IMG/VR virus record: IMGVR_UViG_3300005861_000343
Location: 1 to 43,860 of that record
Reading direction: 5' to 3' (one strand)
Source of the DNA: a virus
Length of the DNA stretch: 43,860 bases
This document shows, in pieces, positions 21,824-35,283 of this stretch (the stretch's first letter is position 1; the number at the start of each line of letters is the position of its first letter). A model generated the notes under the pieces. It was not told the origin of the DNA. It saw only the letters and a list, made by a program, of their open reading frames with translations, and did not search any database. The position numbers and the translations under genes were made by a program.

Positions 21824-22236
21824 GCGAGCCGAAGCTGATCGATGTCGGAGGCGGCCTGCATATAGTAGATGACGCCGAGGCCCGAAACGGTCCCGAAACG
21901 GAACCGTTTGGACCGCGCCGGGATCCTGCGAGCGAGGAGCTGCGCGAGATCGGCGCCGAGCTGCGCAAGCCGGTAACGGCGCAGCGGCGGGACTATCCCA
22001 ACCTGATGCTGGCGATCGGCTTGGAGGCGCTGTACCGGCAGACGCAGGAACATATCGCGCGGCAGGGTCATATTCTCTCGCGCAAGGAGTTCATGGCGCT
22101 GGGCTTCTCGCTCCTGGTGCCCGCCCCCACCCTCCTGCAGCTCATGCAGCGGGGGCTGCCGTTCATGCTGGTGCAGCAGCCGCAACCGCCGGGTCAGGTC
22201 CCGCGCAATCCGCTGAGTATCATCAAGCGTGGCTGA
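21820..22236 (+). CDS. hypothetical protein before the F-like head protein
   Basis: This 138-residue protein has an acidic N-terminus with a short turn (VGGGLHIVDDAEARNGPETE), a helical middle (NLMLAIGLEALYRQTQEHIA), and a hydrophobic, proline-rich end (ALGFSLLVPAPTLLQLMQ and QPQPPGQVPRNPLS). It overlaps the preceding gene by ATGA and the F-like gene by 8 bases. No family recognised. It may be a head assembly accessory, given its place. Confidence 0.65.
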   Translation: MSEPKLIDVGGGLHIVDDAEARNGPETEPFGPRRDPASEELREIGAELRKPVTAQRRDYPNLMLAIGLEALYRQTQEHIARQGHILSRKEFMALGFSLLVPAPTLLQLMQRGLPFMLVQQPQPPGQVPRNPLSIIKRG

Positions 22237-23575
22237 TTATCGCGGCAATAACGCGGCGGACTTCGACTTCGCGGCGTTGCCGCCGGAAGAGGCGGTCGAG
22301 TTTTTCCGCAAGAAGGGCTACCAGGTCGGTTTCGATTGGCGCGACGTCTGGCAGCAGGAGCATCAGCGGGCCTTCACGGTCGCCAAGGCGATGACGGTCG
22401 ATCTCCTGCAGGATATCCGCGCGGTGGTCGACAAGGCGATCGCCGAGGGGATCGACTTCCAGGATTTCCGCGAGAATCTGGAGCCGATCCTGCGTGCCCG
22501 CGGATGGTGGGGGCGCCAGGAGATGGTCGATCCGCTGACCGGAAAGAAGCGGGACGTGCAGCTCGGATCCGCGCGCCGATTGCAGATCATCTATGACACG
22601 AACCTGCGCACGAGCCTCGCGGCCGGCCATTGGCAGCAGATCCAGCGTACCAAGAAAGACCTACCGTACCTGCGCTACGTCGACCCGGATCCGAATCCGC
22701 GGCCGCAACATCTGGATTGGAGCGGCACGATCCTGCCGGTCGATGATCCCTGGTGGTCGGCGCACTATCCGCCCAACGGCTACAACTGCAAGTGCTACGC
22801 CGACGCGCTCTCCGACGATGACCTGGAGCGCTACGGCTTTGAGCGCAGCCCGGCCGCGCCGCCTTCGCCGACGCACACGTACACCAATCCGCGCACGGGG
22901 CAGAGCTACGAGGTGCCTGATGGGGTAGCGCCGGAGTTCGCATACAATGTGGGCGAGACGGGAATCGTCGAGCCGGCGGAGCAGATGCTGGAAGCGAAGC
23001 TCGCCGCCGCAGACCCGGATATCGCGCATGCGGTGCGAGAGATGGTCGCGCCGAGCGCGGCGCTGCCCGATGATGCGATCGCGCGCAAGCTGGCGCGGCG
23101 TCCCGAAGCTCACCGGATCATGCAACGCGTACCGGCGCGCGAATGGCGCGCGGCGTGGGATTACTGCACCGACTCCGACCCTATCAACGACCCGTGGCGG
23201 CGGCATGGAGAGCTAACACCGCAGGCGAAGGACCTGCTCGCGCTGATGGGCAAGTTGCCGCGATTCAGCGGAGTTACCTGGCGCGGGGAAGAGCGCGCCT
23301 TGACGCCGGGCTTGATCGCAGATCTCACACCGGGAAGCGCTGTGACGCCGCAGGCCTTCTGGAGCACCAGCCGGAGCCGCTATCGGGGTCGCCGGTTTGC
23401 CGGGGCCGAGGGCATCCTCTACGAACTGCACGGGATCCGCGGGCGCCAGATAGAAGCACTGTCGCCGTTCCCGCGGCAGAAGGAGGTCCTCTTTGACCCG
23501 TGGGCTCGCTTCGAGGTAATATCAGCTAATCGCGAGGGGAAAATCCTCCATGTCGTTATCAAAGAAAAGCCCTGA
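22229..23575 (+). CDS. Mu F-like minor head protein fused to ADP-ribosyltransferase
   Basis: This 448-residue protein has two domains. Residues 1-210 match the Mu F/SPP1 gp7-like head morphogenesis family: long helices, then DPDPNPRPQHLDWSGTILPV and WWSAHYPPNGYNCKCYADAL. The C-terminal 105 residues match R-S-E class ADP-ribosyltransferases: TWRGE (R352), FWSTSRS (Ser-Thr-Ser, 379-381), and RQKEVLF (Q417-x-E419) before WARFEVIS. Since Q rather than E comes first, the target may not be arginine. GTG at 22229 overlaps the previous stop. The domain could be injected to modify host proteins; that is inference. Confidence 0.88.
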   Translation: MADYRGNNAADFDFAALPPEEAVEFFRKKGYQVGFDWRDVWQQEHQRAFTVAKAMTVDLLQDIRAVVDKAIAEGIDFQDFRENLEPILRARGWWGRQEMVDPLTGKKRDVQLGSARRLQIIYDTNLRTSLAAGHWQQIQRTKKDLPYLRYVDPDPNPRPQHLDWSGTILPVDDPWWSAHYPPNGYNCKCYADALSDDDLERYGFERSPAAPPSPTHTYTNPRTGQSYEVPDGVAPEFAYNVGETGIVEPAEQMLEAKLAAADPDIAHAVREMVAPSAALPDDAIARKLARRPEAHRIMQRVPAREWRAAWDYCTDSDPINDPWRRHGELTPQAKDLLALMGKLPRFSGVTWRGEERALTPGLIADLTPGSAVTPQAFWSTSRSRYRGRRFAGAEGILYELHGIRGRQIEALSPFPRQKEVLFDPWARFEVISANREGKILHVVIKEKP

Positions 23576-25481: not shown

Positions 25482-26195
25482 ATGGCTCTTCTGACTTCGC
25501 AACGAAACACCGAAATGCTGGGCGACCGGCGCATGTTCAACTATCCGGTCGAGGCGAACACGAATGTCTACCTCGGCGCGATGGTTGCCCTGGACGCAAA
25601 CGGCAACGCGGTGCCGGCGCAGCCCTTTGGCGCCGCGCCGCTCAGCGCATTGACCGTGGTGGGGCGCGCGGACCGGCTCGTGGGCGGTGTCCCCGGCCAG
25701 GACGCGCTGAACAATCCCGGCGTGGCTGGCGCGATCAGCGTGACGGTGCGCCGAGGCGTTTTCAAATACGACAACGACGGCTCGATCGCGCAGGCCCAGG
25801 TGGGGGCGAAGTGCTTCGCGCTCGATGACCATACCGTGGGCGCCAGCGACGGATCGGGCGCCACCGTGGTGCCGAACACCACCGAGATTACCTTTCCCGC
25901 GGCCGCGCCCCTGCTGGTGGTGCTGGGCGGCGAGAATATCGTCAAGGGATCGGTGATCGCGACGAGCCTGTCCGGCGGCGCCGGCACCGTGTATGTCGAG
26001 GGCACTGATTACCTGATCGACTATCAGGCAGGACTGATCACGGCGCGCGCCGGGGGCGGAATCGCCGCCAGCGCCAACGTGTACATCACCTACAAGTACG
26101 GCGCACCGACTCGGCCCGTGGTCGGCCGCGTGGTGCAGCTCGACACTGACGGGGTCTGGGTGGACTTCGAGGACCAAGGCGCACAGGCCGTTTGA
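25482..26195 (+). CDS. head decoration-like protein with a beta-module
   Basis: This 237-residue protein has an N-terminal DUF2190-like decoration fold (MFNYPVEANTNVYLGAMVAL and GVFKYDNDG) and a C-terminal module with YVEGTDYLIDYQAGLITARA. The module recurs in the sheath and gp37-like proteins. It lies between the protease and the major capsid, where decoration or stabilisation proteins are encoded. GAGAGGG lies upstream of the ATG. It may form trimeric spikes on the head. Confidence 0.72.
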   Translation: MALLTSQRNTEMLGDRRMFNYPVEANTNVYLGAMVALDANGNAVPAQPFGAAPLSALTVVGRADRLVGGVPGQDALNNPGVAGAISVTVRRGVFKYDNDGSIAQAQVGAKCFALDDHTVGASDGSGATVVPNTTEITFPAAAPLLVVLGGENIVKGSVIATSLSGGAGTVYVEGTDYLIDYQAGLITARAGGGIAASANVYITYKYGAPTRPVVGRVVQLDTDGVWVDFEDQGAQAV

Positions 26196-27768: not shown

Positions 27769-28301
27769 TGAGCGCCGGCATCCAACTCAAGGTCGATATC
27801 GACGATCAGGAGCTGCGCACCGCCCTGCGCAAGGTCGCGCATCGGGTGACCGGCCTGCGTCCCGCATTCGAGTCGATCGGACAGACATTGCTCACGGCCA
27901 CGCGCCGGCGCTTCGAGACGCAATCCGGTCCTGACGGCCGCGCGTGGAAAGCACTGGCGCCGTCCACAATTGCAGCCCGACAGCGGCGCAACCGGCGCGG
28001 CAGTAAGCGCAAGGCCGCCATGGCGGCACTCTCAGGCGACAACGGATTGCGAATCCTCTTTGTGACCGGGCGTCTGCTCGGGTCGCTTACCTACAAGGCC
28101 ACCGAGCGTGCGGTCGCCGTGGGCACCAACGCGAAATTTCCCGGCGGCAATTACTCCCGTGCGGCGATCCATCAGCTAGGCGGCGAGCCCGGCATGGCAC
28201 CAGGCCCAGCGGCCATACCGGCGCGGCCGTTCCTGGGAGTCAATAGCGCGGATCAGCGCGTGATCGCGCGGCTGCTGATGCGCCATATGGAGGCCGTCTG
28301 A
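27768..28301 (+). CDS. Mu gpG-like virion morphogenesis protein
   Basis: This 177-residue protein matches the phage tail S/Mu G family: VDIDDQELRTALRKVAHRVT, the basic stretch RFETQSGPDGRAWKALAPST then a highly basic RQRRNRRGSKRKAAM, LRILFVTGRLLGSLTYKATE and SRAAIHQLGGEPGM, IPARPFLGVNSADQ. It functions in tail completion or head-tail joining. It is coupled at both ends (TGATG). Confidence 0.84.
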   Translation: MSAGIQLKVDIDDQELRTALRKVAHRVTGLRPAFESIGQTLLTATRRRFETQSGPDGRAWKALAPSTIAARQRRNRRGSKRKAAMAALSGDNGLRILFVTGRLLGSLTYKATERAVAVGTNAKFPGGNYSRAAIHQLGGEPGMAPGPAAIPARPFLGVNSADQRVIARLLMRHMEAV

Positions 28302-29152
28302 TGGCGGTCCAACTCGATACGCCCTGGGCGGGTACGACATACAACCCGCCGGCGCCGGCGGGGATCGCCGCGATCGAGGCCGCGATTGTCGCGCAGCTCA
28401 AGGCGTCATTCGCGACGGTCGCCGGCATGGGCGGGATCGATATCGAGCATTTCCCGGATGCGCCGCAAAAGTACCGGGCGGTCAGTCAGCTCGGGACCGT
28501 GCTCGTGGTTTACCGCGATGATGACTACAAGGACCCAGAGCCGACCGACCGGATCGTGCAGGAGCGCGTGCTGCAATTCGAGATCGACGTCATCTCGCGA
28601 TCGCTGGGATGGGCATACGCCAGCGGCGATCCCAGCGGTCCGGGCGCGTATCAGATGCTGGGTCAGATCCGCCAGGCGCTGATGGGCTATGCGATTCCCG
28701 GGTGCAAGAAGATGTACCCGCGCCGCACCCGCTTCGTCGAAGATGCAGAGGGCGTCAATTACATCTACGCGATGGACTGGGAGATTCCGACCATGGCGGT
28801 CGAAGTCTCTACCGTCGATAACTATCCGGTCCTGACCAAGGTGATGGCCCTGGAGGAGAACGCGCAGACCACGATTTCCGTGCCTGCGATCGACTATACC
28901 TTCAATGCGCAGGACCAGATTCAGCTCCCGGACCAGAATATCTCAAGCGTCGTAGTCAAGAGCCAGGACGGCTCGATCACTTATTCGCTGAATATCGATT
29001 ATTCCGTCGATGCGGTCAACGGCGTCATCACCAACCTCGGGGGCGCCAGCCTCATTCCGGCCGGCGCGACGGTGTCGGTCGGCTACTCGAAGGCGGACGT
29101 CGTAACGGCGATAGCCGGAGGAGGGAACGCGCCGACATGGCCGACCAACTGA
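28301..29152 (+). CDS. Mu gp37-like protein with C-terminal beta-module
   Basis: This 283-residue protein matches the Gp37 family over residues 1-175 (IAAIEAAIVAQLKASFATVA, FPDAPQKYRAVSQLGTVLVV and QERVLQFEIDVISRSLGWAY), a neck or tail-completion protein. The remaining 105 residues form the beta-module seen elsewhere, with DYTFNAQDQIQLPDQNISSV, NIDYSVDAVNGVITNLGGAS and GATVSVGYS. The added module is not in Mu gp37. It overlaps the next gene by 16 bases. Confidence 0.78.
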   Translation: MAVQLDTPWAGTTYNPPAPAGIAAIEAAIVAQLKASFATVAGMGGIDIEHFPDAPQKYRAVSQLGTVLVVYRDDDYKDPEPTDRIVQERVLQFEIDVISRSLGWAYASGDPSGPGAYQMLGQIRQALMGYAIPGCKKMYPRRTRFVEDAEGVNYIYAMDWEIPTMAVEVSTVDNYPVLTKVMALEENAQTTISVPAIDYTFNAQDQIQLPDQNISSVVVKSQDGSITYSLNIDYSVDAVNGVITNLGGASLIPAGATVSVGYSKADVVTAIAGGGNAPTWPTN

Positions 29153-29481: not shown

Positions 29482-31065
29482 GTGGCTGCATTTTTTCACG
29501 GCGTCTCGATAAACGAGTCCAATATCGGGCCACAGCCGGTCCGTACCACCCCATCGGCGGTGATCGGCCTGGTGGGATCGGCCCCGAGCTGGCTGGTCGC
29601 GTCGCCCGCAGTCGCGGCGCCGCTAAACACGCCCACCCTGGTCTCCTCCCAGGTTGATGCGGCGAAATTCGGGCCATTGATTCAGGGGTACTCGATCCCC
29701 TACGCCCTGGCGGCGATTCAGCAGCAGAACCTCGGGAAAGGCTTCGGTCAGGTGATCGTGGTCAACGTGTTCAACCCGGCCACGCACAACACGGCTGTAG
29801 TGGCCACCGCATTCGCAATGCCGGCCAGCGGCCCGCAGGTCGTCAACCTGGGTCACATGGGGATCCTCGGCCCCGGGCTGCCGGGATTCACCGGCGCGAC
29901 CACCGTGGTGGTGACCAACTCCGCCGCTACGACCACCTATGTCGAGGGCACTGATTACGCGGTCGATTACATCAACGGCCTGGTGACCGGCAAGAGCGGG
30001 GGGTCCATTACCGCGGGCGAGGCGCTGAAGATCGCATTCAGTTACTGCGACCCCAGCAAGGTGGCGGACCCGGACATCATCGGCGCGGTGACCGGCGGCG
30101 CGTACACCGGCCTGCAGGCGCTCCAGCTCGCCTACGGCACGATCGGCTTTTTCCCGTCGATGCTGGTCGCGCCGGGTTATTCCAAGGATGAAACCGTCGC
30201 GGCCGCGATGGACTCCCTGTCGTATAAGATCTACGCCAGAGCGCTGGTGGACGGCGTGCCCGCGACCACCGTTGCTGCGACGATCGCCAATCGCGGCACG
30301 GTGGGCAACGTCTTCGACACCAGCAGTAAGCGCACGGTGCTGTGCGCACCAGGCGCCGATTTTACGGATACCGGGATCATCCCCACCGGGGTCACCGTCT
30401 CTGCCGCGGGGACCGCGGCGCAGAACAGCGCGAACGTGACTGCCGACTCGCCGTTCTCGCAATGGGTAGCAGGCGTTTGGGCCGCGGCCATCCTGCAATA
30501 CGGCTTTTGGGAGTCGCCGTCGAACAAGGCGATCATCGGGGTAATCGGACCGGACGTGGCGATGTACGCCTCTCCTTTCGACGCCGGCGCCGACACCAAC
30601 ACGTTGAACGCGCAGGGAATTGTGACCATCTTCGACGCTTTCGGAACCGGGAACCGTGTCTGGGGGAACCGCAGCGCGGCGTACCCGACCAGCACCGCGC
30701 CCGATAATTTCGTCGCCATCCGCATGGCGATGGACGTGATCGAGCAGACGGTGCAGCTCACGTCGATGCAATACCTGGACGGACCGATCACCAATGCCGA
30801 CATCACCACCGTGCTGCAGGCGGTCAATTCGTATTTGCGATCGCTGGTGCAGCAGGGCGGCTTGGTCGGCAATCCGCAAGCGACCTTCAACCCGGCCGAG
30901 AATCCCGCCAGTCAGCTCGCCGCTGGCCAACTCGTGCTCGACCTGGACGTGATGCCGCCGCCCCCCATGGAGCGGCTGACCTGGAACGTGATGATCGACA
31001 CCAGCCAGCTCGCCAGTCTGACCGCTTCCCAGAGCGCCCAGGCCTCCGGGGTGATCGCCAGCTGA
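29482..31065 (+). CDS. contractile tail sheath protein
   Basis: This 527-residue protein is the tail sheath (Mu L-like). N-terminal HGVSINESNIGPQPVRTTPS and AVIGLVGSAPSW are family starts; the middle has GIVTIFDAFGTGNRVWGNRS and VAIRMAMDVIEQTVQLTSMQ, and the C-terminus ENPASQLAAGQLVLDLDVMP. A beta-module inserted at about residues 140-195 contains YVEGTDYAVDYINGLVTGKS. It slides on the tube and contracts on infection. GTG at 29482 follows GGAAGGAAG. Confidence 0.92.
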   Translation: MAAFFHGVSINESNIGPQPVRTTPSAVIGLVGSAPSWLVASPAVAAPLNTPTLVSSQVDAAKFGPLIQGYSIPYALAAIQQQNLGKGFGQVIVVNVFNPATHNTAVVATAFAMPASGPQVVNLGHMGILGPGLPGFTGATTVVVTNSAATTTYVEGTDYAVDYINGLVTGKSGGSITAGEALKIAFSYCDPSKVADPDIIGAVTGGAYTGLQALQLAYGTIGFFPSMLVAPGYSKDETVAAAMDSLSYKIYARALVDGVPATTVAATIANRGTVGNVFDTSSKRTVLCAPGADFTDTGIIPTGVTVSAAGTAAQNSANVTADSPFSQWVAGVWAAAILQYGFWESPSNKAIIGVIGPDVAMYASPFDAGADTNTLNAQGIVTIFDAFGTGNRVWGNRSAAYPTSTAPDNFVAIRMAMDVIEQTVQLTSMQYLDGPITNADITTVLQAVNSYLRSLVQQGGLVGNPQATFNPAENPASQLAAGQLVLDLDVMPPPPMERLTWNVMIDTSQLASLTASQSAQASGVIAS

Positions 31066-31105: not shown

Positions 31106-31630
31106 ATGCCCGACATTCAAGTGAACTCGCTCAATAATTGCGCGGTGTACATCGATGGGATCGGCTATATCGGTCGCGCCAGCGAGGTCGATGTCGCCCA
31201 TCCCAAACAGGTGATGACCGATTACAAGGGCGCCGGCATGGTCGGCAAACTCGAGCTGTGGGCCGGGGTGGACAAGCTCGAGTCGCGCATCAAGTGGGCG
31301 AGTTTCGACACCACGGCATTGCTCGCGGCCAGCGACTTCACCGTCGCGCATATGTTCCAGGTACGCGGCAACTTGCAGCAATACAACTCGCTGGGCCTGG
31401 CGGCCGAATTGCCCGTGGTCTACCTGATGACCGGAGTCTTCAAGGACGGCGGCAAGGCCGCGTTCAAGCACCAGGAACAAGTCGAGACCGAATCGACGAT
31501 CAGCGTCTATCACACCGAGCTGTGGGTGGCCGGCATCCAGATCTTCTTGTACGACGTGTACTCCAACACCTACATGGTCGGCGGTATCGACAAGCTTGCC
31601 GCGATGAAAGCCAACCTCGGCCTGATCTAA
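31106..31630 (+). CDS. tail tube protein (P2 FII-like)
   Basis: This 174-residue protein matches phage major tail tube proteins of the P2 FII family: IQVNSLNNCAVYIDGIGYIG, EVDVAHPKQVMTDYKGAGMV, GKLELWAGVDKLESRIKWAS, and a closing HTELWVAGIQIFLYDVYSNT. It stacks as hexamers inside the sheath. The type is P2-like rather than Mu gp40-like. GGAGAGAG lies six bases before the ATG. Confidence 0.9.
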   Translation: MPDIQVNSLNNCAVYIDGIGYIGRASEVDVAHPKQVMTDYKGAGMVGKLELWAGVDKLESRIKWASFDTTALLAASDFTVAHMFQVRGNLQQYNSLGLAAELPVVYLMTGVFKDGGKAAFKHQEQVETESTISVYHTELWVAGIQIFLYDVYSNTYMVGGIDKLAAMKANLGLI

Positions 31631-31662: not shown

Positions 31663-32040
31663 ATGGCCGAGCAACTGACGGTGAATGGAGTGCCAGTCCA
31701 GCGCGCGGCGCAATGGACTGCCGACCGCACTATCACGCTGCCGAGCGGCGCGAGCGCCGAGATCCGCAAGGGCAAAGGCCGCGACCTGCGGCGCGTGATG
31801 ACGCGCCTGGCCGCGGCCGCGGGCAGAGAGGAGGACAGCGCCGGCGCCGACGCGGTCTTTGGGTTGATCGCCGAGCTGGTGCGCGTCGAAGGTGCCCCGA
31901 TCATGCTCGAGGACCTGGAGGAGATGGAGCTGGCGGACGTGTTCATGCTCCAGAATGAGGTAGTTGGCCGAAATTTTTCGCCTGCTCGGCGCCCGGTCTC
32001 CTCGCCCTCGTCGAGCGCGGGTTCTCCCTCGCGGAACTGA
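31663..32040 (+). CDS. tail assembly chaperone, zero-frame product
   Basis: This 125-residue product is the short form of a tail assembly chaperone (P2 E / Mu gp41 type): beta-rich start QLTVNGVPVQRAAQWTADRT then IRKGKGRDLRRVMTRLAAAA, and MLEDLEEMELADVFMLQNEV. After the slippery site the zero-frame tail turns into a low-complexity end (ARRPVSSPSSSAGSPSRN). It should guide tape-measure assembly. It sits between the tube and the tape measure, as expected. Confidence 0.84.
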   Translation: MAEQLTVNGVPVQRAAQWTADRTITLPSGASAEIRKGKGRDLRRVMTRLAAAAGREEDSAGADAVFGLIAELVRVEGAPIMLEDLEEMELADVFMLQNEVVGRNFSPARRPVSSPSSSAGSPSRN

Positions 32041-32138
32041 GCGAGATGGAGCTTGAGGAGATCGCGATGTGGCTGCGCACGTCGATGGCGGCCGAGGCCG
32101 CCAAGGCGCGCGCCATTCGCGACGCCGGGCGCGAGTAA
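31663..32138 (+). CDS. tail assembly chaperone, -1 frameshift fusion product
   Basis: The -1 frame stays open from the slippery site to a TAA at 32136-32138. A ribosome that slips back one base would join residues 1-105 to about 53 new residues: FACSAPGLLALVERGFSLAE, LSEMELEEIAMWLRTSMAAE and AAKARAIRDAGRE. This helical ending resembles the gpE' part of the P2 E+E' fusion. It would be about 158 residues, made at low level, which sets tail length. No separate start serves the extension. Confidence 0.8.
31971..31977 (+). other. programmed -1 frameshift heptamer
   Basis: A AAT TTT in the zero frame has the X XXY YYZ pattern (A, T, T). After slippage the codons AAA and TTT pair in the -1 frame, and reading continues with TTC GCC TGC. 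Near this site the gene overlaps its extension, as in other contractile-tailed phages. A GC-rich stretch follows and could give a stimulating structure. Confidence 0.78.
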
Positions 32139-32169
32139 CGCAAACGCAACACGGGCGGACTAATTGATT

Positions 32170-32481
32170 ATGACCAGAGTGTTTGTCGGCAATCTTTCCT
32201 ACGACGCAGACGAGCATGATCTGCGCGGGCTGTTCAGCGCGGCCGGCGCGCTGGAGGGGATCGAGATCGTGCGCGATCGCCAGACTGGCAATTCACGCGG
32301 TTTCGGCTTCGTCTCCTTCATGATGTCGAGCGACGCCGAGCGGGCGGTCGAGGACCTCAATGGCCAGGATCTCAAGGGGCGCCCACTGCGCTTGGAGTTG
32401 GCCCGGGCCCGCGAGCCGCTGCGCGAGCGCCATGATCGCAGGGTGCATGAGACGGCGACCGCGACGCGCCGCCGCTGGTAA
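32170..32481 (+). CDS. RNA-recognition-motif (RRM) protein in the tail operon
   Basis: This 103-residue protein is a single RRM: VFVGNL (RNP2, residues 4-9), the helix DEHDLRGLFSAAGALEGIE, RGFGFVSF (RNP1, 43-50), and the closing strand RPLRLELARA (71-80), then a strongly basic tail (REPLRERHDRRVHE and TRRRW). Such proteins bind single-stranded RNA. It lies between the frameshifting chaperone and the tape measure, where no RRM protein is expected. ATG at 32170 is chosen over a TTG at 32164. It could bind the phage mRNA near the frameshift site; that is only a hypothesis. Confidence 0.92.
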   Translation: MTRVFVGNLSYDADEHDLRGLFSAAGALEGIEIVRDRQTGNSRGFGFVSFMMSSDAERAVEDLNGQDLKGRPLRLELARAREPLRERHDRRVHETATATRRRW

Positions 32482-34400: not shown

Positions 34401-34699
34401 TGCACAGCGTAAGTCTGGAGCCGGGATACGGAGAGAGCGCGCGGGTCGATCGCACGCAAGAACCCGAACTGCGCCTGATGAGCGCCGTGTTGAAGGATGC
34501 CCTGGAGCATTACGCGCGCTCCCCACACGGCCCTGGGCGCAAGGCAGCGCTCGCGCGAGAGGCGCGCGCATGGGTCCGTGACGACAGCGATTCCCTCTTC
34601 GGCTTTCGGAGTGTCTGCGAGCATCTGGAGATCGACGCCGCCGCGCTGCGCGCGGCGCTTGCGGAGCGCGAGGCTGCGCGCGTGGAGGGCTCCCTCTGA
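34400..34699 (+). CDS. small protein of a host-like family after the tape measure
   Basis: This 99-residue protein has a helical middle, ELRLMSAVLKDALEHYARSP, then GPGRKAALAREARAWVRDDS and FGFRSVCEHLEIDAAALRAA. The pattern (a leading LL.AVL.DAL, a basic loop, AW..., F.F..VCE.L...) is one I associate with small bacterial proteins of uncharacterised function, seen mainly in host genomes. It sits between tape measure and gpU and is not a standard tail gene. It could be a regulator picked up from the host. No name is claimed. Confidence 0.68.
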   Translation: MHSVSLEPGYGESARVDRTQEPELRLMSAVLKDALEHYARSPHGPGRKAALAREARAWVRDDSDSLFGFRSVCEHLEIDAAALRAALAEREAARVEGSL

Positions 34700-35283
34700 T
34701 GTTCGCGCAGCTCGGCGATATTACCTTCGAGGTCCTCGGCTCGCCGGAATCGATGCGGATCACGCGCGGCTGGCGTTACCCCGAGCATCCCGTTATCGAC
34801 GGGCTGCCCAAGCTGCAAGCGGTCGGCGCTGCGCTCGACCAGATTGAGCTGGACCTGCGATTGCACGCGAGCATCGCGCCGCCGGCGGCGCAGCGCGACG
34901 CGATCTACGCGATGGCGGATCAGCAGGTGGCCGCGCCGCTGGTTTTCGGCAGCGGAGTCCATCGCGGCTACTTCGTCGTCACCGACGCGACCGAGGCGAC
35001 CGCGCTAACCACCGACAGCGGCGACCCGATCGCGATCGAGATGCATCTGACGCTGAAGGAGTGGTCGCCCGGCGCGGCGCTGAATCCGAACGCGCCGCCC
35101 AAGCCGGCGACCGCGCCCCCCGCGATTATCCAGGGTGCCGCGCCAGGCGCGACGAGCACGCGCTCCGCGGCGGGCGCCGGGACCTCGGCCCTGATGAGCC
35201 TGGGCAGCGCGGTGCCCTCGATTCCGGCGACCTCAAACCCGGCGTCGGTGCCGTTAACGACGATCGTCAGGAGCGATAGCTGA
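34699..35283 (+). CDS. P2 gpU-like tail protein
   Basis: This 194-residue protein matches phage P2 gpU: AQLGDITFEVLGSPESMRIT, then PKLQAVGAALDQIELDLRLH and VFGSGVHRGYFVVTDATEAT, IEMHLTLKEW. gpU is a tail terminator or completion protein. The last 70 residues are Pro/Ala-rich and unstructured. It is coupled with the previous and next genes (TGATG). Confidence 0.86.
   Translation: MFAQLGDITFEVLGSPESMRITRGWRYPEHPVIDGLPKLQAVGAALDQIELDLRLHASIAPPAAQRDAIYAMADQQVAAPLVFGSGVHRGYFVVTDATEATALTTDSGDPIAIEMHLTLKEWSPGAALNPNAPPKPATAPPAIIQGAAPGATSTRSAAGAGTSALMSLGSAVPSIPATSNPASVPLTTIVRSDS

Follow-up and report, generated by a model that had tools for sequence, protein, structure and literature searches.

What does an RRM protein do in the tail operon of a phage, and does it act on the genes that flank it? 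RRMs are among the commonest RNA-binding domains of eukaryotes, and to our knowledge their roles in bacteria are little understood. The gene considered here lies on a 43,860-nucleotide stretch of viral DNA (IMG/VR record IMGVR_UViG_3300005861_000343, hereafter the window) in which a Mu portal, Mu F, a Mu-like protease, a major head protein, a Mu-type transposase and GemA point to a Mu-like (transposable) phage. Its tail genes follow the order sheath, tube, tail assembly chaperone (TAC), RRM, tape measure protein (TMP), gpU-like, gpX-position, gpD-like hub, gpV-position and gp25-like (Table 1), the names gpX and gpV being presumptive assignments of ours from position and general knowledge. The RRM gene starts 31 nt after the stop codon of the TAC extension and ends 23 nt ahead of the TMP start. 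An earlier note on this DNA had placed it between the tail chaperone and the tape measure of a Mu-like phage, and both parts of that description hold; the note had also put it 32 bases past a -1 frameshift product, of which the frameshifted neighbour stands and the distance is corrected by one base. Elsewhere in the structural region, the Mu F-like head protein (22229-23575) shows weak similarity at its C-terminus to an ADP-ribosyltransferase family (PF01129, just under the cut-off), and a decoration-like protein (25482-26195), a head-tail protein (28301-29152) and the sheath all match both phrog_807 and phrog_20240; the three seem to carry one common inserted repeat, perhaps an Ig-like domain.

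Table 1. Features of the tail operon around the RRM gene, in window positions
Feature	Position	Strand	Evidence or remark
Tail sheath	29482..31065	+	phrog_23 E=3e-78
Tail tube protein	31106..31630	+	Phage_tube E=6e-33
TAC, zero-frame product	31663..32040	+	PHROG 21320 E=9e-14; Phage_TAC_7 below cut-off
-1 slippery heptamer AAATTTT (A AAT TTT in zero frame)	31971..31977	+	
TAC -1 frame extension, stop codon (32136-32138) included	31971..32138	+	extension conserved in relatives
Spacer ahead of RRM start, 31 nt	32139..32169	+	
Single-RRM RNA-binding protein gene, 103 aa	32170..32481	+	Pfam RRM_1, AF2 model, Foldseek
RNP2 motif VFVGNL, residues 4-9	32179..32196	+	F5 aromatic
RNP1 motif RGFGFVSF, residues 43-50	32296..32319	+	F45, F47
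TMP, 631 aa	32505..34400	+	PhageMin_Tail E=2.1e-25; phrog_28 E=7e-36
gpU-like tail protein	34699..35283	+	Phage_P2_GpU E=5e-25; directly after RRM in TMP-less relatives

Profile and model agree in predicting that the gene product is a canonical single-domain RRM protein whose RNA-binding surface is intact. The open reading frame, 103 codons from an ATG, matches Pfam RRM_1 (PF00076) over the whole profile (1-70 of 70) with 82.2 bits and an E-value of 2.5e-23, above the curated cut-off of 20.7 bits, and matches 326 distinct PDB sequences at E<=1e-3. All three RNA-stacking aromatics, F5, F45 and F47, are present. In an AF2 model generated from an alignment of 32 RRM relatives, residues 1-80 adopt the beta-alpha-beta-beta-alpha-beta order at a pLDDT of about 89-95, and the basic C-terminal tail (residues about 82-103) is disordered; Foldseek searches with this predicted structure returned HuR, TIA-1, RBM39 and the bacterial PG1 at a probability of 1.00. 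The two RNP motifs and basic tail reported earlier are thus confirmed by the reading frame, the profile and the model, and the RRM fold, for which structure prediction had been proposed as a check, is recovered. A chance match is ruled out by the RRM_1 E-value and by the same gene order in divergent relatives. These relatives, together with a letter-for-letter copy in a second IMG/VR contig, where 33,024 bases of the window recur without mismatch, also speak against an assembly join.

The decisive expectation of the earlier note, that the arrangement should recur in related phages, is borne out. A scan of IMG/VR with the RRM alignment yielded 158 relatives; among the 80 of these 158 loci that were listed and the contigs added by a scan with the sheath, at least 58 further contigs have an RRM gene within this tail operon, in most cases right behind the TAC, and they provide at least 45 distinct tail RRM coding sequences, the window counted in. 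All are metagenomic contigs, often with short loci, and kinship among them inflates the raw counts. To avoid selecting on the RRM itself we also scanned with the tail tube, taking as usable any locus with at least 900 nt beyond the tube gene. The RRM was present in 52 of 63 usable loci and absent from 11, or, with identical tubes collapsed, present in 42 and absent from 10; counting all tube-scan loci, the clade contains 50 distinct tubes with the RRM and 12 without. None of 60 more distant tail tubes had an RRM beside it. On the tube tree the presence of the RRM requires 3 changes, against 26 with shuffled labels, and although this tree alone does not distinguish gain from loss, one gain and few losses would most simply suffice to explain the distribution.

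The tree of the RRMs themselves, a short alignment of 90 columns from which the host's own RRMs were left out, unites the tail RRMs, including the window as its identical copy L016_2, in one group (support 87/90) set apart from the sampled plasmid-borne, bacterial and other viral RRMs. A profile scan of genome contigs returned only two distant Bacteroidota RRMs. Read most simply, these data suggest that an RRM entered the tail operon once, in the ancestor of a Mu-like contractile-tail lineage, and has been inherited with the operon since. Viral contigs of 155-470 kb (L017, L027, L046, L048, L080, L093 and L094) also encode RRMs, which fall into separate sequence groups; none of the window's tail genes lies beside them in the stretch fetched.

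The gene is under strong purifying selection. Its median pairwise dN/dS is 0.058 for the 27 sequences of group A, the largest group; group B, with just four usable pairs, gives 0.109, and a group lacking the TMP gives 0.119. These values are close to those of the tube (0.04-0.05) and the sheath (0.06-0.10) and indicate tighter constraint than on the TAC (0.18-0.21); gpU stands at 0.12-0.22. Among the 45 distinct tail RRMs, F45 is conserved in all, F47 in 44, and position 5 is F or Y in all, so that 44 of 45 retain the three RNA-stacking aromatics, the exception being L097, where F47 of RNP1 is replaced.

The earlier note had suggested a role in TMP translation. The RRM gene lies directly ahead of the TMP in the window, and its product might, for example, bind the TMP start region. 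The relatives make such a role very improbable. A full-length TMP is present in the window (631 aa), and G047/L099 has one of 693 aa; of 27 contigs tested for a Mu-type transposase domain, these same two have it. In the other loci examined the reading frame after the RRM is short and of low complexity, with only about 60 C-terminal TMP residues left, and in group A this remnant evolves at a dN/dS of 0.6 in its N-terminal part and 0.29 in its C-terminal 65 residues. The RRM beside the decaying remnant stays at 0.06. In six distinct contigs it adjoins gpU with a gap of about 40 nt or less and no TMP between, and its dN/dS is still about 0.12. In one contig, G054 (L197, read as L271), the RRM lies directly between tube and gpU, and the TAC is found together with a tape-measure-like reading frame (weak phrog_167 match, E=3e-4) about 5 kb upstream, flanked by the major head protein gene and the head gene that follows it (L271:960-3359). 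Since TAC and TMP moved there as a pair and the RRM stayed, the RRM was not part of that pair.

The loss of the TMP can be followed step by step, down to its complete absence between RRM and gpU, in L018, L021, L025, L032, L054, L065, L077, L078 and L092. Around the decayed genes the head-tail cluster is otherwise constrained, and no transposase was found in these contigs; the decay and the lack of a detectable transposase give the clusters the look of domesticated elements, perhaps of a gene-transfer-agent-like or tailocin-like kind. Three contigs carry the same ABC-type ATPase gene beside the protease-head-tail block (L177:1-567, L181:17562-18533, L188:12423-13244), adjoining a large beta-propeller or Cep192-like surface protein, and in G005 this ATPase gene parts the portal and terminase from the remaining cluster, a placement that suggests a fixed chromosomal site. 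TAC, RRM and TMP are all absent from the tail position in L100-L102. In L100 (8682-9062) and L102 (2963-3412) one unrelated reading frame of about 120 aa (WIFGEY..FSF..VC..LGLD..FVRRRL) takes their place, and the sheath reading frame of these two contigs exceeds 700 aa.

The other neighbour is the TAC. Its Pfam Phage_TAC_7 score is 17.2 bits against a cut-off of 25, and -1 frameshifting is predicted from its slippery heptamer, which lies in the right frame, and from an extension conserved in relatives; the relatives have AAATTTT or AAATTTC at this site, and L078 and L092 have GAATTTT. The earlier note had also proposed control of frameshifting, and the RRM could tune the frameshift ratio by binding the mRNA near the slippery site. 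Proteins are known to stimulate frameshifting in some eukaryotic viruses, which offers a precedent; in nearly all members, moreover, the RRM gene comes immediately 3' of the frameshift extension, and where an RRM-bearing operon has its TAC region on the contig, that TAC is almost always slippery. Against this, a sister subclade (L193, L205, L206, L208, L210, L211, L215, L216, L245) and L262 lack the RRM but retain the slippery TAC and its extension, the TAC left the RRM behind in G054, and many phage TACs elsewhere frameshift without any such protein (PMC5009743). Nor does the RNA after the window's slippery site fold better than shuffled sequences (z 0.12), which gives no signal of a stimulatory structure; Rfam elements were absent across the window. 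Control of frameshifting or of the chaperone ratio is weakened to an improbable reading, and TAC frameshifting seems, from these comparisons, to be independent of the RRM.

The short spacer between TAC and RRM may hold a signal of its own. Across group A, the 55-70 nt that separate the stop of the TAC extension from the RRM start have a mean column identity of 0.74, compared with 0.56 at 4-fold degenerate sites of RRM, tube and sheath, a difference that 0 of 5000 resamplings reached, neighbouring columns being taken as independent. In this group the spacer is a conserved non-coding element, and an RNA operator or a promoter would both fit. A conserved leader reading frame of 20 codons was rejected (it is closed in about ten of 25 sequences, with a pooled pN/pS of 0.8), and a specific UGACUA operator is not claimed; the heptamer occurs at many other places. 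Outside group A no such element was found; the window has none that can be recognised, and its spacer also lacks a good Shine-Dalgarno sequence by eye; L197 keeps only the ATG-proximal end. In L021-type loci the spacer has repeated GTGACTA-like words, and the stretch GTCGAACGCGGCGGAGG before it shows hardly any synonymous change.

Taken together, the constant location in a late operon, the purifying selection and the preserved RNA-binding surface suggest a late-made RNA-binding protein. The RRM persisted where TMP and TAC were lost or relocated, which speaks against a switch devoted to one of them and favours a chaperone or regulator of late mRNA acting in trans. The protein would be made alongside the virion proteins and would bind single-stranded RNA stretches, most likely of the long late (head-tail) mRNA, serving as an RNA chaperone or as a regulator of translation or stability for the structural genes in general; by binding its own leader, the conserved upstream spacer, it may also curb its own synthesis. 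We regard a trans-acting RNA-binding protein on late (virion) mRNA, inherited after a single capture, as the best explanation, at a probability of roughly 0.45. Counting against it, the L193 subclade, L262 and L100/L102 manage without the gene, the spacer element is confined to group A and one aromatic is lost in L097. The fuller proposition, that in Mu-like contractile phages and their apparently domesticated, particle-producing descendants the captured RRM is an important late RNA regulator of virion genes with autoregulation through the leader, we put forward as doubtful, with the odds clearly against it.

Two further readings were weighed. The protein may be directed at the host, shutting off or stabilising host mRNA or countering defence, and its gene a passenger in the late operon. 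Passenger genes turn over fast as a rule, however, and the RRM is fixed at one place under about the constraint of structural genes. Its separability from TAC and TMP and the tolerated losses agree with a host-directed function, as does the ordinary occurrence of single-RRM proteins among the RNA-binding proteins of bacteria; one from Acinetobacter has nanomolar affinity for AU-rich RNA (PMC9313427). We consider this reading unlikely, though it leads the remaining alternatives, followed by frameshift control in trans and then by a component of the particle or its assembly. That last reading, in which the RRM fold would serve protein contacts or bind DNA or RNA in the particle, would account for the tail-operon location and for a dN/dS near that of tube and sheath. 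RRMs used for protein contacts need not retain the stacking aromatics, yet here these are conserved, and many tails of the same type do without an RRM, which leaves a particle component decidedly improbable.

Among known systems, those closest to the window RRM are the single-RRM proteins of bacteria (the cyanobacterial Rbp type, NF058537 Rbp_regulator, PG1 of PDB 7jly and AB-Elavl of Acinetobacter), in which a short tail likewise accompanies one RRM_1 domain, about 80 aa long, that has both RNP motifs. Structural similarity to them is high by Foldseek with the predicted model, and identity to plasmid-borne and phage single-RRM examples is 34-43%. Unlike the bacterial proteins, the window RRM resides in a phage tail operon, belongs to a sequence group of its own and has an arginine-rich basic rather than a glycine-rich tail; its score against NCBIfam NF058537 is 76.9 bits, below the cut-off of 100. 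Virus-encoded RRMs also occur in Microcystis phage MaAM05, Acinetobacter phage MD-2021a and giant eukaryotic viruses, but in different sequence groups. Two kinds of phage RRM occur in the reference collection, each in a genome larger than 200 kb; no tail genes are annotated beside those of MaAM05 and MD-2021a, and none of the reference phages searched has an RRM at the tail-operon position. The viral structure library gave twelve rows at E<=1e-3, from eukaryotic giant viruses (one row unnamed), and PHROGs has no family for the window RRM.

A search of the open-access literature for RRMs together with phage tails, prophages or jumbo phages found no relevant paper, so that a fixed RRM in a phage structural operon has no precedent in that literature or in the reference collections searched; a late RRM regulator, if real, would add a post-transcriptional layer of particle assembly undescribed in those papers. 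In the lambda G/GT- and P2 E/E'-type cases known to us the TMP gene comes directly after the TAC. The window shares with them the slippery TAC and conserved extension ahead of the TMP (PMC5009743), and differs in the RRM gene inserted between the two, which a whole lineage retains under strong selection even as the adjoining TMP decays. Its loci with RRM and TMP, with RRM and no TMP, and with TAC and no RRM provide a clean comparative system for what a prokaryotic RRM regulates.
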